A stretch of 64,000 nt of DNA. Origin: Caldilineaceae bacterium (lineage in GTDB: Bacteria; Chloroflexota; Anaerolineae; Caldilineales; Caldilineaceae). Every line of letters starts with the position of its first letter. The first letter of the stretch is position 1. Under the pieces are notes generated by a model. It did not search any database. It had not been told where the DNA came from and saw nothing but the letters and a program-made list of their open reading frames with translations. The position numbers were made by a program, and so were the translations under genes. The stretch is from positions 1-64,000 of the forward strand of contig JAGRCP010000048.1 of the NCBI GenBank assembly GCA_020433455.1. Reading direction: 5' to 3'. Shown here in pieces: positions 1 through 60,699 of this stretch.

Positions 1-530
1 GTGCTTCCGCCCATGGGGAACTCATCTGGAATCTTCGCCTCCTTGCGCCGTTGGAGATCGTCACACCAACTTTCCGGCAGATAGAGCCGCCGGTCCAAGA
101 AGGTGTGGCCCTGCTCCGTCGCATAGGTCAGAAAGACGCCGATCTGATAGTTCTCCGTCTTACCGGCGGTCCCGCTGTATTGACGTTGTACTCCGGCCGA
201 CTTGGTTCCTTTCTTGAGAAACCCCGTCTCATCGACGACTCCGATCCCTTCCGGGTCACCGAAAACTTCGGTGACGAAGCGTTGCAACTCATCACGGGCT
301 GCATCCGCATCCCATTTTGTGCTATAGAGCAGTCTTTGGGTTGCATCCGGCGTCGCATCGCCGATCGCTTCGGCCAATTGCCAGCCGTTCTTACGTTCAA
401 TCGGCGACAGCAGCCCGTGAAGGTACTTGCCCGACTGTGTTCGACCTTCGCTTCGTCCAAAGAGTGGCGCAAAGCGACTATGAAATGCTTCAAAGTCTTC
501 GGCCCATTCGTCCAATTCAGTGAGTTCCAT
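1..530 (-). CDS. IS701 family transposase, N-terminal part (partial)
   Basis: My translation from the ATG at 528-530 is open to the edge and gives about 176 residues starting MELTELDEWAEDFEAF. It contains a VVDETGF segment (Asp about residue 100), typical of the first catalytic Asp of the DDE domain in IS701-family transposases. The following stretch contains KKGTKSAGVQRQYSG and LYLPESWC, which are also characteristic. Family members are roughly 400-450 residues, so more than half of the protein, with the remaining catalytic residues, is outside the window. The visible frame has no stop or frameshift. The start follows a GGAG-like ribosome site. Whether the element is complete cannot be told. 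Confidence 0.85.
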   Translation of the reverse strand, partial: MELTELDEWAEDFEAFHSRFAPLFGRSEGRTQSGKYLHGLLSPIERKNGWQLAEAIGDATPDATQRLLYSTKWDADAARDELQRFVTEVFGDPEGIGVVDETGFLKKGTKSAGVQRQYSGTAGKTENYQIGVFLTYATEQGHTFLDRRLYLPESWCDDLQRRKEAKIPDEFPMGGS

Positions 531-600
531 AGCTCCTCCAGCGTACTTGTTCCCCCCTTCATTATCGCTGGATACGCTAATTTTTCAAATGCGGTTGTAG
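1..600 (-). mobile_element. IS701-type insertion sequence, one end, cut by window edge
   Basis: The transposase reading frame beginning at 530 runs off the left edge, so only the 5' part of the element is present. Its outer end must lie between 530 and the radical SAM stop at 622. The terminal inverted repeat cannot be identified because the other end is outside the window, so the right boundary given here is a guess. No target duplication can be tested. Confidence 0.5.
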
Positions 601-621
601 TATTAGCAACGTGCGTTTCGT

Positions 622-11664: not shown

Positions 11665-11740
11665 CGGCACGCTGTGCGAAGGATACAATAGCCATGAATT
11701 TCCCGCAAAAAAAACCGGTCCAACGCGTCCGTCATCACTC

Positions 11741-11820
11741 AGTAAACCCCGGAGGAAACTCACATACAGATTTTATCAGGAACGAACCTGTCGGATTTTC
11801 GTTGTGGTATTCACGCCGGA
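11741..11820 (+). repeat. dispersed leader element, copy 1
   Basis: Columns 11751-11820 align without gaps to 32611-32680 at about 53 of 70 identical positions, and the similarity extends about 10 bp further left. The shared 3' end reads GTGGTATTCACGCCG. The copy lies about 20 bp 5' of the preferred DMT start and is included in the longest possible DMT reading frame, which argues against that frame's upstream ATG. Confidence 0.8.
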
Positions 11821-11840
11821 CTCTCCTGCGCGGAAGTGCG

Positions 11841-12728
11841 TTGCCGTACGTGATTTTGCTGGGTTTTTTCTATGGCTCCAGTCTGGTCGCGTCCCGCTTT
11901 AGCGTGGGGCAATATGATCCCCGAACCTATATCGCCCTGCGCTTGCTCTTGGCATCGGCTGCGCATCTGGTCATCTATGGATTGATGCGACGCCGGCTGC
12001 CCGGCTCCGGGCAACTGTGGCGCTACGCCGCGGTGCTGGGCATTGTGGGCACGGCTATTTCCATGACGTCGATTGTGACTTCGCTCAAGTATCAGAGCAG
12101 CGGCGTAACCTCTCTTTTGCTGACCCTCAATCCCGCGGTAACGATTTTGCTGGCTCAGATTTTTTTGCCCGATGAGCTGCTGACCCCGCGCAAGGCGCTG
12201 GGCGTGACCGTGGCGCTTTCAGGCGCCGGACTTCTCTTTCTGCGCGGCGGGACGGGCCTGGCTGATTTCGGCCGGGCGGATTGGCGGGGGTATGCCTGGG
12301 CGATTCTGGGCGTGTTGTGCAGTGCGGGCGGCTCGGTTTTTGCCCGACGCTGCATGCGCCAAATGGACGCGTGGGACGTGGCCAGCGTGCGCATGTTTAC
12401 GGCTGCGCTGGCACTCTTGCCCGTGGCGTGGCTGGGCGACGGGTTTGACCTGAGCCAGGTGACCTGGGTCGGTTATGCTGCCCTCTTTTATGCCGCGCTG
12501 ATCGGTACCTTTGGCGGCATGTGGCTGAATTTTTATATTATTAAGAACTATGGTGCGACTCCTGCTTCCCAGACCGCCTACGTGATTCCCTTGGTGACGA
12601 CCGTGCTGGGCGCGGCTTTGCTGGGCGAAACGGTGACGTCGGGCATGTTGGCCGGCATGGCCGTCATTTTTGTGGGCATTTCTCTGCTGAATTTCCGGCC
12701 GCGATTTCCCCGGTCTTACTTCAGATAG
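11841..12728 (+). CDS. DMT superfamily (EamA) transporter
   Basis: About 295 residues and ten hydrophobic helices in two EamA repeats, with the second repeat starting near GYAWAILGVLCSAGGSVFARR. These proteins export or import small metabolites or drugs; the substrate cannot be read. I place the start at TTG 11841 (then PYVILLGFFYGSSLVASRF), which gives the normal family length and N-terminus. An ATG at 11694 with a weak AAGGA site would add 49 residues encoded by the dispersed repeat and remains possible. It is divergent from mrpA. Confidence 0.8.
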   Translation: MPYVILLGFFYGSSLVASRFSVGQYDPRTYIALRLLLASAAHLVIYGLMRRRLPGSGQLWRYAAVLGIVGTAISMTSIVTSLKYQSSGVTSLLLTLNPAVTILLAQIFLPDELLTPRKALGVTVALSGAGLLFLRGGTGLADFGRADWRGYAWAILGVLCSAGGSVFARRCMRQMDAWDVASVRMFTAALALLPVAWLGDGFDLSQVTWVGYAALFYAALIGTFGGMWLNFYIIKNYGATPASQTAYVIPLVTTVLGAALLGETVTSGMLAGMAVIFVGISLLNFRPRFPRSYFR

Positions 12729-16905: not shown

Positions 16906-16925
16906 AGAAATGCTCCTCGTACTTT

Positions 16926-17017
16926 TTGGCGTGAATACCATGACGGAAAGGGGACGCTTCCGTTGATTGTCCGGTCGTATCTGTATCGCCTCTGGGAGGT
17001 TTCTCTCCGGGGACGAC
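16926..17017 (-). repeat. dispersed leader element, diverged copy 3
   Basis: On the minus strand this matches copies 1 and 2: 22 of 25 bases at the TGGTATTCACGCC end (16926-16950), then ATCTGTAT and GTTTC-TCCGGGG stretches with small insertions. It lies about 20 bp 5' of the pspA start, in the same orientation relative to the gene as copy 1 relative to the DMT gene. Alignment outside the first 25 bases is by eye. Confidence 0.55.
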
Positions 17018-17127
17018 GTATTTCCCACAGAGCCTCCCGGAGGAACCTGTATGATTACGTCCGGTCATTATAACCGCCCCCTTGCGCCCCCACAATGACG
17101 CGGGCCTGACAGCCAGGTGACTATTGT

Positions 17128-17147
17128 CGCCGGACTCCAGTCCGGCG
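17128..17147. repeat. short GC-rich hairpin (REP-like)
   Basis: CGCCGGACT (17128-17136) and AGTCCGGCG (17139-17147) form a perfect 9-bp stem with a 2-nt loop. It lies between pspA and the end of the dienelactone-hydrolase gene, so it may end that transcript, but no T-run follows. The rest of 16906-17189 shows only the dispersed element and no gene. Confidence 0.5.
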
Positions 17148-32584: not shown

Positions 32585-32600
32585 AACGCCTCAAGCTTCT

Positions 32601-32680
32601 AGTGAAACTCGGCGGAAATTCACATGCAGGTTCTATCAGGGATAAACTCAGCGAATTTCCGCCGTGGTATTCACGCCGAA
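32601..32680 (+). repeat. dispersed leader element, copy 2 with 12-bp stem
   Basis: CGGCGGAAATTC (32610-32621) and GAATTTCCGCCG (32653-32664) form a perfect 12-bp stem with a 31-nt loop, followed by GTGGTATTCACGCCG. It aligns gaplessly over 70 columns with 11751-11820 (about 76 per cent). It occupies the gap between the two PA14 genes. No T-run follows the stem, so it is not an ordinary terminator. Confidence 0.85.
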
Positions 32681-32685
32681 TTGTA

Positions 32686-35600
32686 TTAGGGGACGGAGAC
32701 GGTCCAGTTCGTCGTGTCGCTCTGCCCGTTCTGGTTGGTTACGGTAAGTTGAATGGTGTATTCGCCCGCCGCAGGAAATTGCAGGGTGATCTCCGGCTCG
32801 TTGTACACAGTGCCCGACGCAATCCATTGATACCCGTTCTCTGCCAGTGGGGCTCCGCCCGTTCCGGACATCAACGCACTAAAGACTATCTGCTGATTTG
32901 CCTGCACCTGGACAATTTCGCCGCGCTCATCATTGCCGATTACCTGCACAGGCGCGCCGTTGATCGTCGCCTGGATGACTGCCGTGGGCGGATTGCCCGT
33001 GACGGGCACTTCACCGGGCAGGGTCGGCGTGGGCGTCGGCTGGGGCGACTCGCCTGTTACAGGCGTAAAGGTCGGCGTGGGCGTCATCTCTCCCACCGGC
33101 GTTGCTTCACCTCCCGGCGGCGCTTCCTGCTGAGCGGGCGCAGGCGTGGGCGTCGCGGGGAGAGGCGTAGGAGCCACCGGCGTTGCCGTGGGGATCAGCT
33201 GCTCGCTGGATGGGACGGGCGGCGGAGCCTGGCCGATAAGAATTAGCCTGCTGTCAGTGCCCTGTAGCCCCTGATCATCCGTGACGGTGAGGGTGACATT
33301 GTAGACCCCCGGTACGCTGTAGCTTTTGGTGACCTGCGCCGCACCGGCTGTGGTGTCATCACCGAAGTCCCAGGCAAAAGTGATGATCGGATTGGTGCTG
33401 TCGGATTGCCGGGCGTCGAAGTTCATCACATTGCCCACCGTACCCAGCCGCAGAGAGTCAATCGCGGCATCGGGCGCACTGAGAGGATTGGGCGCGGTCG
33501 GTTCTTCATCCACTCGAATCTGGCCGGATGTGGCGTTGGTTCTGCCCTGATCGTCCGTCACGGTGAGGGTGACGCTGTAGATGCCCGCCTCCTCGTAGAC
33601 GTGTTCGGCCTGAATGCCTGCGCCCGTGGCGCCGTCGCCCCATTCCCAGGCATAATCGACCAGCTCGCTCTGGTCCGCTACGGATTCTCCCGCGTTCAGC
33701 AAAACGTTCTGCCCAATTCGGGCCCGGGTCGGGCCGCGGAAGACGGCCTGAGGCGTTCTGCCGGGGATGGCGGGCTGCCAGCCAAGCTGGACGCGACCGG
33801 CCAGATCTGTTTTGGCGTAATCGATTCGCAGGTCGTGCTCGCCTGCTTCCATCACCTGGGAGCGTGCGCTCAGCGTGCGCATTTCCTGCTCGTTCCAGCT
33901 GTCGATGAGCAGCACGCCGTCCAGCCACAGGCGTACGCCGCCTGCTGCCTGGATGGTGAAGCGATACGCCATTTGATCGAAAGCGGTCCGGCTACTCCAG
34001 CGTACCGACCAGTTATTGGCAGGAATGCCGGGAATCGGCTCGTTCTGGCCCCACGTATAGTTGAGCGATTCCTCATTGCGCACCACGGCCGGCTCGCCCT
34101 GGATGTCGGGATTGGTGAAATATTCCGCCTTCCAGTCGGGGTAGCGGCTAGTCAGGACCATATTTGCGCGTACGGCGGCATTTCCTTCGCCCGGGCGATA
34201 CTCAACCTGGATGGTATGCGGTCCCCGCCCCAGATTTAACGGAACGCTGTGAGCGGTTGGAATCTCCATATCCCAATAGTCCAACACGGGCACTTCGTTG
34301 ATCCAGACGCGTATGCCGCCGTCGCCAAAGACGTTGAGGTGATAGGTTCCGGCCGGGAGTTCGCGTACGATTGTCCAGCGCACGGAGAAGTTGTCGGCTG
34401 TAACCTCGGGCGCAGGCGCTTCCGTGCCCCAGGAAAAGTCGATCATGCTGTCCTGGCGGGTTAAGGCCGGCGGGCCGGCGACTTCATCGTTGTTGAAGTA
34501 CTCGCCTTCCCAATTGAGCAACGCGTTGACCGGCTCGATGCCGACGGGCTCTAATGTAAACGCAGCCGTGACGGGCTGTTCGGCCGATGCAATGCCCTCG
34601 CTATAGAAAAACTCAGTCAGGAGGAGCGCTAATTGGGGCAGCGCTTCATCCAGCATTTCATGGGATGCGCCGTCTATCACGACCTCCCGGCCGTTCTCCA
34701 GCCCCGTCAGCATGGCTTCCGCATTGGCAGCCGGCGCCAGGGCGTCCATGCTGCCGCTGACCAGGAGGATGGGAATATCGCTTGTCAGCGGGTTCCGAAA
34801 AGCCTCATCCAGCGCGGGATCGCCTACCCGGGGGCAAAGCTCCGCCCAGACGCCGTTGATGGCATTGCCCAGCAGCGCCTCTTCGGCCTGGGTCGTAATC
34901 GCTTCCTGGCGCGCGGGGCCGGCGGATGAAGCGCAACGCACCATAACGGGCGTCAGGTTGTCGCCTGCCTGACGACGGTAGGTCAAGGCCTGGCGGGCGG
35001 CCCAGGAATAGTCGCCCTGAGCCATTTCGGCATAGCGGGCGGGCAGGCTCCGCTGGGTAGAGTTCGCCAGGGCCTGCGCCGTGACGTACTGGATATCGCC
35101 TCGGCTGATGGGAACCTGGACGGGCAGACCGCTGACGGGATCATCGGTGAAGACGGTTATGGGCCCTGCCGAGAGGCGATCCAGCACGGCCGCGACCGTG
35201 GCGCGGAAGTCAGGCATTTGCGGCCCCAGAACGGGATCCGCGTTGATGCGGCTCTCCAGGAGGGCCAGTTGATTTTCCACATCGGCAGGCAACACGGTTA
35301 GCTGATCCGGCCCCTGTACCAACAGTAGGGCGGCCCGGGCGATGGACTCGGGCGCGGCTTTGATGAGGGCTGCGCCCACATGGCTGCCGTATCCAATGCC
35401 CAGCAGGTTGATCTCCTCGTATCCCAGGGCCCGGCGCATGGCGTCCACATCGTTCGCCATCTCTTGCGCGTTGTAGGCGGCCGGATCAATGCCCGCATCC
35501 TGCCACTGCTGATAACAATGCGCGTAGTAATCGCCCAGTCGGGTTGCAATGCGCCTGTAGGTGGGCGGATTGGTGAAAAAGTTGCCGAAGCGCTGGGAGC

Positions 35601-36042
35601 AGCTCAGGCGGGGCCGGGCGTCGCCCATGCCCCGGGGCTCCATCATAATGATGTCCGACTGGCCGCCGAAGATGGCGGAAAGTGCCAGAAATTGTTCGCC
35701 CATCTCCGTCAGCGTGCGGCCGTTAAGGGGGGAATCGGTCAGAACGATTACCGGTAAGTCGGGCTCGTCGGCCGCGGTGCGATAGCGGAGCGCCGAGACT
35801 TCAATCGCCGCGTCATTAGCGCTTTCCTCGGCGGTCAGGCGCAGCCACTCGACCATGATTGTGGGCTGATCGTCATTCTCCAGCAGGAAGGGCGCAACCA
35901 GCACGGCCGGCGTGTCGGAAGGCGCGGCGCGCTGAGCCGTCAGCGGGCGCGGCGCAACAGCTATGATCAGCGCGCCCATGAGCAGGATGACAAGCGTGGC
36001 TTGCAGCGCGGATCGGGTTGTAAAACGTATGCCGCTGGGCAT
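32686..36042 (-). CDS. alpha/beta-hydrolase-like domain with PA14 and PKD domains, nucleophile Ser missing
   Basis: 1118 residues. A signal or anchor helix (about 13-30) is followed by a TAP-like alpha/beta-hydrolase region (about 60-480). The elbow, normally GxSYG, reads GIGYGS, so the nucleophile Ser is Gly217 (codon GGA, 35392-35394). The acid (SGSMDALAP) and His (GASHEM) positions are kept. Two PA14 domains follow (about 510-635 and 640-765), then PKD domains (about 775-850 and 870-945, DFGDDTTAG), a long Thr-Pro linker, and a final Ig-like/PKD domain (about 1025-1118). ATG behind AGAGG. The Ser loss suggests a binding rather than enzymatic role, unless a nearby Ser takes over. Confidence 0.82.
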   Translation of the reverse strand: MPSGIRFTTRSALQATLVILLMGALIIAVAPRPLTAQRAAPSDTPAVLVAPFLLENDDQPTIMVEWLRLTAEESANDAAIEVSALRYRTAADEPDLPVIVLTDSPLNGRTLTEMGEQFLALSAIFGGQSDIIMMEPRGMGDARPRLSCSQRFGNFFTNPPTYRRIATRLGDYYAHCYQQWQDAGIDPAAYNAQEMANDVDAMRRALGYEEINLLGIGYGSHVGAALIKAAPESIARAALLLVQGPDQLTVLPADVENQLALLESRINADPVLGPQMPDFRATVAAVLDRLSAGPITVFTDDPVSGLPVQVPISRGDIQYVTAQALANSTQRSLPARYAEMAQGDYSWAARQALTYRRQAGDNLTPVMVRCASSAGPARQEAITTQAEEALLGNAINGVWAELCPRVGDPALDEAFRNPLTSDIPILLVSGSMDALAPAANAEAMLTGLENGREVVIDGASHEMLDEALPQLALLLTEFFYSEGIASAEQPVTAAFTLEPVGIEPVNALLNWEGEYFNNDEVAGPPALTRQDSMIDFSWGTEAPAPEVTADNFSVRWTIVRELPAGTYHLNVFGDGGIRVWINEVPVLDYWDMEIPTAHSVPLNLGRGPHTIQVEYRPGEGNAAVRANMVLTSRYPDWKAEYFTNPDIQGEPAVVRNEESLNYTWGQNEPIPGIPANNWSVRWSSRTAFDQMAYRFTIQAAGGVRLWLDGVLLIDSWNEQEMRTLSARSQVMEAGEHDLRIDYAKTDLAGRVQLGWQPAIPGRTPQAVFRGPTRARIGQNVLLNAGESVADQSELVDYAWEWGDGATGAGIQAEHVYEEAGIYSVTLTVTDDQGRTNATSGQIRVDEEPTAPNPLSAPDAAIDSLRLGTVGNVMNFDARQSDSTNPIITFAWDFGDDTTAGAAQVTKSYSVPGVYNVTLTVTDDQGLQGTDSRLILIGQAPPPVPSSEQLIPTATPVAPTPLPATPTPAPAQQEAPPGGEATPVGEMTPTPTFTPVTGESPQPTPTPTLPGEVPVTGNPPTAVIQATINGAPVQVIGNDERGEIVQVQANQQIVFSALMSGTGGAPLAENGYQWIASGTVYNEPEITLQFPAAGEYTIQLTVTNQNGQSDTTNWTVSVP

Positions 36043-59493: not shown

Positions 59494-59619
59494 AAAATTG
59501 ATTCCTTTCAGTGGCGCATCGAACGCGGATGCTATTTCAAGACGGCGTACATATGACGACGGAAATAGCGCCGTTCTGCCTCTGGCAGGAACCGGGGGGC
59601 TTCTTTCCGCCGGGATTTA
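59494..59619. other. 126-bp intergenic stretch, nothing recognised
   Basis: No gene or strong hairpin found; it holds the dehydrogenase leader. Confidence 0.5.
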
Positions 59620-60648
59620 CTATTGGCGGCTAATGCGCCGCTTTTTACGCTCTTCGATATAGTAGTTGATAACCATGACCAGGAGCAGGAGCGCGCCCCA
59701 GGCAAATTGACGAAAGAAGATAGCCGCGCTGGAGCCGGAAAGTTCCAGCATGAGCATATTGAGACCCGTGGAGAGAAACTGGATGGAAAGGATCGCCAGC
59801 ACCAGGCCCGTCACTGTGCCGAAGCCGCCCGTGTAGCTTACGCCGCCCAGAATCGCAATGAGCACAGTCAGCAGGATAAAGGAGGAGCCGTAATCGGGCT
59901 TGGCCGAGTTCGCCCGGGCCAGGAAGATAATGCCCGCAATCCCGCCGACCACGCCCGCCAGCCAATAGGTGCGGAGAATGACCCGATCAATGTTGATGCC
60001 CGAGAAGCGGGCGGCAACGGGATTGGTGCCCAGCATGTAGACGTTAAAGCCGAATGTGGTGCGGTTGAGCAAAATGGCAAAAAAGATGGTGAGAACGATG
60101 AATATAATCACGGGAATTGGCACGCCCAGGAGCGAGCCGTTGCCCAGAAAGGCAAACTGGGTCGTCGTAATGGCCGGGCCGCCGGTGACCACGTAGCCGA
60201 GACCCGTGTAGAGTGAGCCCGTCCCCAATGTCGCCAGAATGGGCGTAATGCCGATCCGCGCCACCAGCAGGCCGTTAAAGATGCCGCAGACGGAGCCGAC
60301 CGCCAGCGCAGCCAGCATGGCCAACGGGATGACGATGGATGCGGACATTCCGCCCTCGCCGCCTAATCCGGTCAAAATAGTGGCCGCGGTCAACGCAGCC
60401 AAATTGGCAATGCCCACGACCGAAAGATCGATGCCCCCCGTCAGCATGGTGATGAGCATGGCAAAGGCCAGGATGCCGAACTCGGGAAACTGGACGGCCA
60501 TTGACTGCATGTTGCGCACCGTAAAAAATTTGCCCGGCAGCAACAGGCTGAATGCGACAAATATGATCACAATGATGATCATCAGTCGCGCCGTGTGGCT
60601 GTCAAAGCTGAGCCGACGATACCAGGGTTGTGTGGATGCTTGTTCCAT
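59620..60648 (-). CDS. sugar ABC transporter permease (RbsC-like) 2
   Basis: 342 residues and eight to ten helices of the BPD_transp_2 family ([47 protein letters not shown]). Pairs with the other permease. ATG at 60648 behind AGAGAG; the alternative at 60657 adds three residues. Confidence 0.9.
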
Positions 60649-60699
60649 GCTGCGCACTCTCTTTTGAAAATGGTGCTGGTTGTTGGGGATTCGGTCCGC

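Follow-up and report, generated by a model that had tools for sequence, protein, structure and literature searches.

A short, hairpin-forming MITE-like element family in a Caldilineaceae bacterium and in a relative of another genus

We describe a new MITE-like family of short elements, real, abundant and ordinary in kind, in the genome of a Caldilineaceae bacterium from which a stretch of 64,000 nucleotides (hereafter the window) was analysed. An initial annotation of this DNA had proposed three copies of an element of about 80 bp, two of them about 20 bp before start codons, and had considered either a MITE-like repeat or a leader regulator. The MITE-like reading is supported by many dispersed copies with crisp ends, a flanking duplication of 4-5 bp, tandem copies joined through one target, recent amplification and a patchy distribution. 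We estimate a probability of roughly 85% that the family is non-autonomous and mobilised in trans by a transposase of the DDE class.

The 13-mer TGGTATTCACGCC, reported as common to the three proposed copies, is present exactly at all three places and occurs 15 times genome-wide, the reversed control pattern giving no occurrence. Tolerant end patterns matched the source genome 37 times for the right end and 69 times for the left end (controls 0), and a covariance model (R1) built from an alignment of 28 copies detected about 90 copies there at E<0.001. The window contains three full copies (Table 1): copies 1 and 2 of the annotation, both about 9 nt longer than had been drawn, and one that it had overlooked, its copy 3 at pspA being only a right-end remnant. 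The right flank of this remnant merges into a ribosome-binding-like GAGGAG, and the pspA site is a composite of the right end of a degenerate element copy and a different palindromic repeat upstream. This repeat represents a second palindromic family of about 78 nt (TAAYCATACAGGTTCCTCCGGGAGG...AACCTCCCGGAGGC..TACAG), for which local blastn gave at least six other copies in 0.64 Mb sampled (L126 3971-4048; L153, L183, L162, L146, L136), and one of its copies is inserted within a copy of the first element with AGTAAC on both sides. Also upstream of pspA, a short perfect-looking palindrome, GCGCCGGACTGGAGTCCGGCG, lies at 17128-17147 of the window and recurs at L161, L182 and L177.

Table 1. Element copies, target tetramers and the adjoining repeat in the window
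Feature	Position	Strand	Covariance-model match	Score or basis
Full element core, 83 nt (copy 2 of the annotation), between two PA14/PKD genes	32603..32685	+	32601-32689	96 bits
Left target tetramer CTAG of copy 2	32599..32602	+		sequence; target consensus YTAG
Right target tetramer TTAG of copy 2	32686..32689	+		sequence
Full element core (copy 1 of the annotation), within N-terminal part of DMT (EamA) open frame	11743..11825	+	11741-11829	71 bits
Full element core, not in the annotation	59536..59619	-	59532-59621	62 bits
Degenerate right-end remnant (copy 3 of the annotation), upstream of pspA start (16905)	16916..16950	-	16916-17006	21 bits
Unrelated palindromic repeat family adjoining the remnant	16981..17058	-		local blastn

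A search of 41 genomes, i.e. the window's own (G000) and 40 relatives (G013, G014, G018 and G020 among them), gave covariance-model matches in four: 89 in the source genome under stricter filters, at least 107 in G013, a member of another genus within this bacterial family, three in G020 and a single weak one in G018. The element was absent from the other 37 genomes searched. The end patterns matched G013 241 times for the left and 189 times for the right end, reversed controls giving none, and its more than 180 copies are near-identical and recent-looking; the copies of the source genome are diverged and their flanks often no longer equal. Viral contigs contained no exact end match and plasmids no similar sequence, and the scans of genome contigs, viral contigs and plasmids returned nothing beyond a single match of 19 nt to a Ruminococcus MAG, which we take as chance.

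The 83-nt core extends from TRAATCCCGGCRGAAAT to ATTTCYGCCGTGGTATTYACGCCRRACTGTA with imperfect ends. Its boundaries are plain in G013 because the copies are near-identical there, the core spanning TAAATCCCGGCAGAAATTCGCC to GGTATTTACGCCAGACTGTA and the flanks being unrelated beyond a short YTAG-like stretch. Among 95 good G013 copies, 34 carry the same tetramer on both sides, where 2000 shuffles gave a mean of 10.2 and a maximum of 20, and five carry the same pentamer (shuffles: mean 0.17, maximum 2), resulting in an exact 4- or 5-bp duplication in 39 of these recent copies compared to about 10 in shuffles, and none of the 95 showed identical flanks of three or six bases. Unusual tetramers also match themselves, i.e. 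GTAG/GTAG nine times and ATAG/ATAG four times, and further self-matching flanks are CTAG/CTAG, CCAG/CCAG, CTGG/CTGG, TTGAG/TTGAG and CGGAG/CGGAG. The majority of the recent copies have unequal flanking tetramers, differing by one base in 29/95 and by more in 32/95, which may reflect later change or exchange between copies. The older copies of G000 have identical flanking tetramers in 13 of 71 cases compared to 3.4 in shuffles. The element is flanked by a target-site duplication of four, sometimes five, bases with the consensus YTAG, not universally present. Where two or three G013 copies stand in tandem, one shared tetramer joins them; the head-to-tail arrays at L189 4067-4329 and L204 3263-3457 have a single GTCG at the joins. 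As for empty sites, comparing the G020 copy with G014 is not clean, the left flank not being homologous, the DMT orthologues without the element are too diverged for a base-level join, and no empty site was found within other repeats.

The fixed short length of the duplication indicates a DDE-type staggered cut. We propose a mechanism in which a transposase provided in trans would recognise both element ends and cut a YTAG-like target with a stagger of four, sometimes five, bases, the joining of the element into this cut resulting in duplication of the target. As YTAG includes TAG (or TAA/TAG on the other strand), such an insertion could hit a stop codon leaving the protein unaltered, and insertions within genes would be removed by selection. 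The transposase acting in trans is presumably of the DDE class and may belong to IS701 or to a comparable type targeting YTAR; we tentatively name such an enzyme as the likeliest driver, with a chance slightly below even. An autonomous parent with the ends TAAATCCCGGCAGAAAT and ...GGTATTTACGCCAGACTGTA was found neither among G013 loci with unpaired ends nor among 32 PF13546 loci, and no IS701-type (PF13546) transposase was detected in G013, where the element is most active. The longer G013 copies, considered as autonomous elements, were rejected as they carry no gene, their inserts being internal arrays of 28-nt palindromes or other short sequences. In some G013 copies a tandem array of the 28-nt palindromic unit (GATCGGGCCTCTGGCCCGCGGCTTCGCC) lengthens the core to 150-307 nt (L206 4572-4878, L222 5342-5620, L214 7780-7958, L208 4469-4619, L220 4676-4825). 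The window itself starts with a truncated IS701-type element (1-602, minus strand; DDE_5, PF13546) leaving the contig, with the left end TACTACAACCGCA and a CTAA flank, and a second IS701-type fragment lies at the end of contig C23. The family looks recently active in G013, and the transposase could therefore be sought there.

Folding of individual copies gives one long hairpin, with z-scores down to -4.5 (copy 2: -30.7 kcal/mol, z -4.1). The terminal inverted repeats, counted on the consensus at the exact ends, agree in 10-11 of 17 positions, i.e. the resemblance between the left and the right end is partial, and the stronger inverted repeat is subterminal, the right arm containing a further stretch that matches the left end more closely. 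Pairing of the left end 5'-TRAATCCCGGCRGAAAT with this subterminal stretch results in a stem of about 20-21 bp, variable towards its apex, and, as read from the consensus, an unpaired right tail of 13 nt ending in TGTA. Across 40 ungapped copies 89% of the cells of the 21-bp stem are paired, compared to at most 48% with the partner slid, and the stem shows 47 double-sided changes versus 21.4 in shuffled data (0/500). Since subfamilies of related copies inflate these counts, the covariation shows the arms changing together and does not tell for which molecule the stem is needed.

The hairpin might be needed for its own sake, in one of two ways: the folded strand would be excised and joined by an as yet undescribed enzyme, the 4-5 bp duplication being kept, or a transcript hairpin at operon stop codons would be kept as a regulator of the neighbouring mRNA. 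The latter would account for the stem covariation and for the excess of G013 copies on the same strand as the flanking genes (46:21, p=0.003); we consider both forms of this reading unlikely. We judge it very unlikely that the element is a hairpin of the REP/IS200-IS605 type moved single-stranded by a Y1 (RAYT) transposase. The hairpin with its 3' tail and conserved end, the stem covariation and two Y1_Tnp genes in the source genome fit such an element; to our knowledge, however, this mechanism makes no target duplication, and a duplication of 4-5 bp is present. Neither Y1 gene is near element ends, one lying within its own GTAG-type repeats, and both being unlinked to the element we ruled out the Y1 transposases as drivers. 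The source-genome locus L077 340-934 contains a Y1 (RAYT-like) transposase gene among GTAG-type GC-rich palindromes, forming a separate REP-like family.

The placement of the copies relative to genes was analysed with genes called by a simple hexamer-based finder of our own, for which reason single start positions are approximate. Intergenic copies amount to 69/71 in G000 and 99/105 in G013, in total 168/176, with about 87% of the sampled DNA being coding. A neighbouring stop codon falls exactly within the flanking tetramer, at either end, in 20/69 (G000) and 28/99 (G013) intergenic copies and in two of the three window copies: TTAG at the right side of copy 2 reads CTAA on the minus strand and contains the TAA with which the PA14 gene 32686-36042 ends, and the additional minus-strand copy has ATAG at both flanks, the left tetramer including the TAG stop of the gene 59620-60657 (minus strand). 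As 44% (G000) and 28% (G013) of the non-coding CTAG sites are on stop codons already, no special attraction to stop codons is needed. The flanking tetramer being a duplicate of the target, the stop would have been present before insertion and the protein would be unchanged. The initial annotation had stated that a low copy number in the genome or a random location with respect to genes would speak against its reading of conserved repeats next to start codons; the copies are many and their placement is strongly intergenic and rich in stop codons, but it is not specific for starts. The proposed distance of about 20 bp to the start codon applies loosely to copies 1 and 3 and is no genome-wide rule, the median distance being 81-86 nt to an adjacent start and 10-17 nt to an adjacent stop.

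These data also bear on the second possibility raised by the annotation, according to which the element would be a structured RNA leader, either riboswitch-like or binding a protein, located before starts and regulating the downstream gene. The compensatory changes in the stem, the same-strand excess in G013 and starts within 40 nt in 25/69 (G000) and 27/99 (G013) copies, compared to 16-17% when points are drawn at random in gaps lacking the element, are in line with this; the null is not matched for gap length, however, so the excess of starts may stem from short gaps, and the strand bias is not significant in G000 (30:21). The flanking duplication and mobility, the median distance to stops being much shorter than that to starts, the occurrence on either strand and the lack of a link to start codons in themselves or to a common class of genes argue against a leader. 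Within the window no Rfam family matched at gathering score, only chance-level matches being seen at copy 2. Comparing the flanking-gene pairs of 71 G000 copies with those of 39 G013 loci, we found both neighbours in common at one G013 array only, with 29-44% protein identity, a pair probably resembling paralogous transporter operons, which leaves no further positional conservation across the two genera. The element is also absent before DMT orthologues: in three genomes they begin directly with M/L-N-L-R-x-S-A-V-P-Y. Taken together, we regard a leader RNA as very unlikely. Least probable of all is an old immobile dispersed palindrome, for example one acting like a terminator or in chromosome organisation, that recombination alone had spread; this would agree with the diverged copies and many unequal flanks of the source genome but not with near-identical copies at more than 100 unrelated G013 places, exact duplications at unusual tetramers and a stem followed by no terminator-like T run.

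At the DMT locus the open frame 11694-12728 carries an EamA domain, and copy 1 lies between the upstream ATG at 11694 and the start point of the orthologues, its right end being at the place of the orthologues' start codon and its flanks, TCAG/CTGC, being no longer equal. The copy is open in frame with read-through over 11694-11846, and DMT may therefore have gained new N-terminal residues or a shifted start.

As a summary, the preferred reading as a MITE-like family moved in trans provides a described small mobile family for a poorly known bacterial family. It suggests a simple rule for harmless sites, the YTAG target often being a stop codon and the duplication keeping the protein intact, and it calls for caution, as a hairpin that looks conserved ahead of a gene can be a copy of a transposon and not a leader.

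Among known systems, IS701 is listed with a 4-bp direct repeat (PMC6352166), and the IS701-type elements occurring within this bacterial family show YTAR duplications of 4 bp (CTAA, TTAG, TTAA) and TACTACA... ends. The element resembles them in the duplication type and in an end starting with TAC; it differs in having the right end TACAGTYYGGCG and the left end TRAATCC and no transposase gene. As the ends agree in nothing but the terminal TAC on the right, we rejected IS701 as direct parent and do not assign the element as an IS701 member. With REP/RAYT repeats, which are GTAG-tagged (PMC3733652), it has in common being a short palindromic intergenic repeat in many copies; in contrast to these it is longer, shows a target duplication and has neither a GTAG tag in the REP position nor a linked RAYT gene. 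YPAL/RU-2 of Yersinia likewise combines internal inverted repeats, a target duplication and predicted recent mobility, but is 168 bp long with duplications of 3 to 26 bp and is unrelated in sequence (PMC2229807). Compared to the bacterial MITEs RUP, Correia/NEMIS and ERIC reviewed in the same article (PMC2229807), the element is, at 83 nt, below most in length, uses a YTAG target with a 4-5 bp duplication rather than TA, and forms its stem with the subterminal copy in the right arm, so that the right tail stays unpaired. It shares with them a size below 200 bp, the lack of coding capacity, inverted ends, which are imperfect here, a target duplication, a long stem-loop, many dispersed and mostly intergenic copies and, in the G013 copies, 5'-TA-3' ends.
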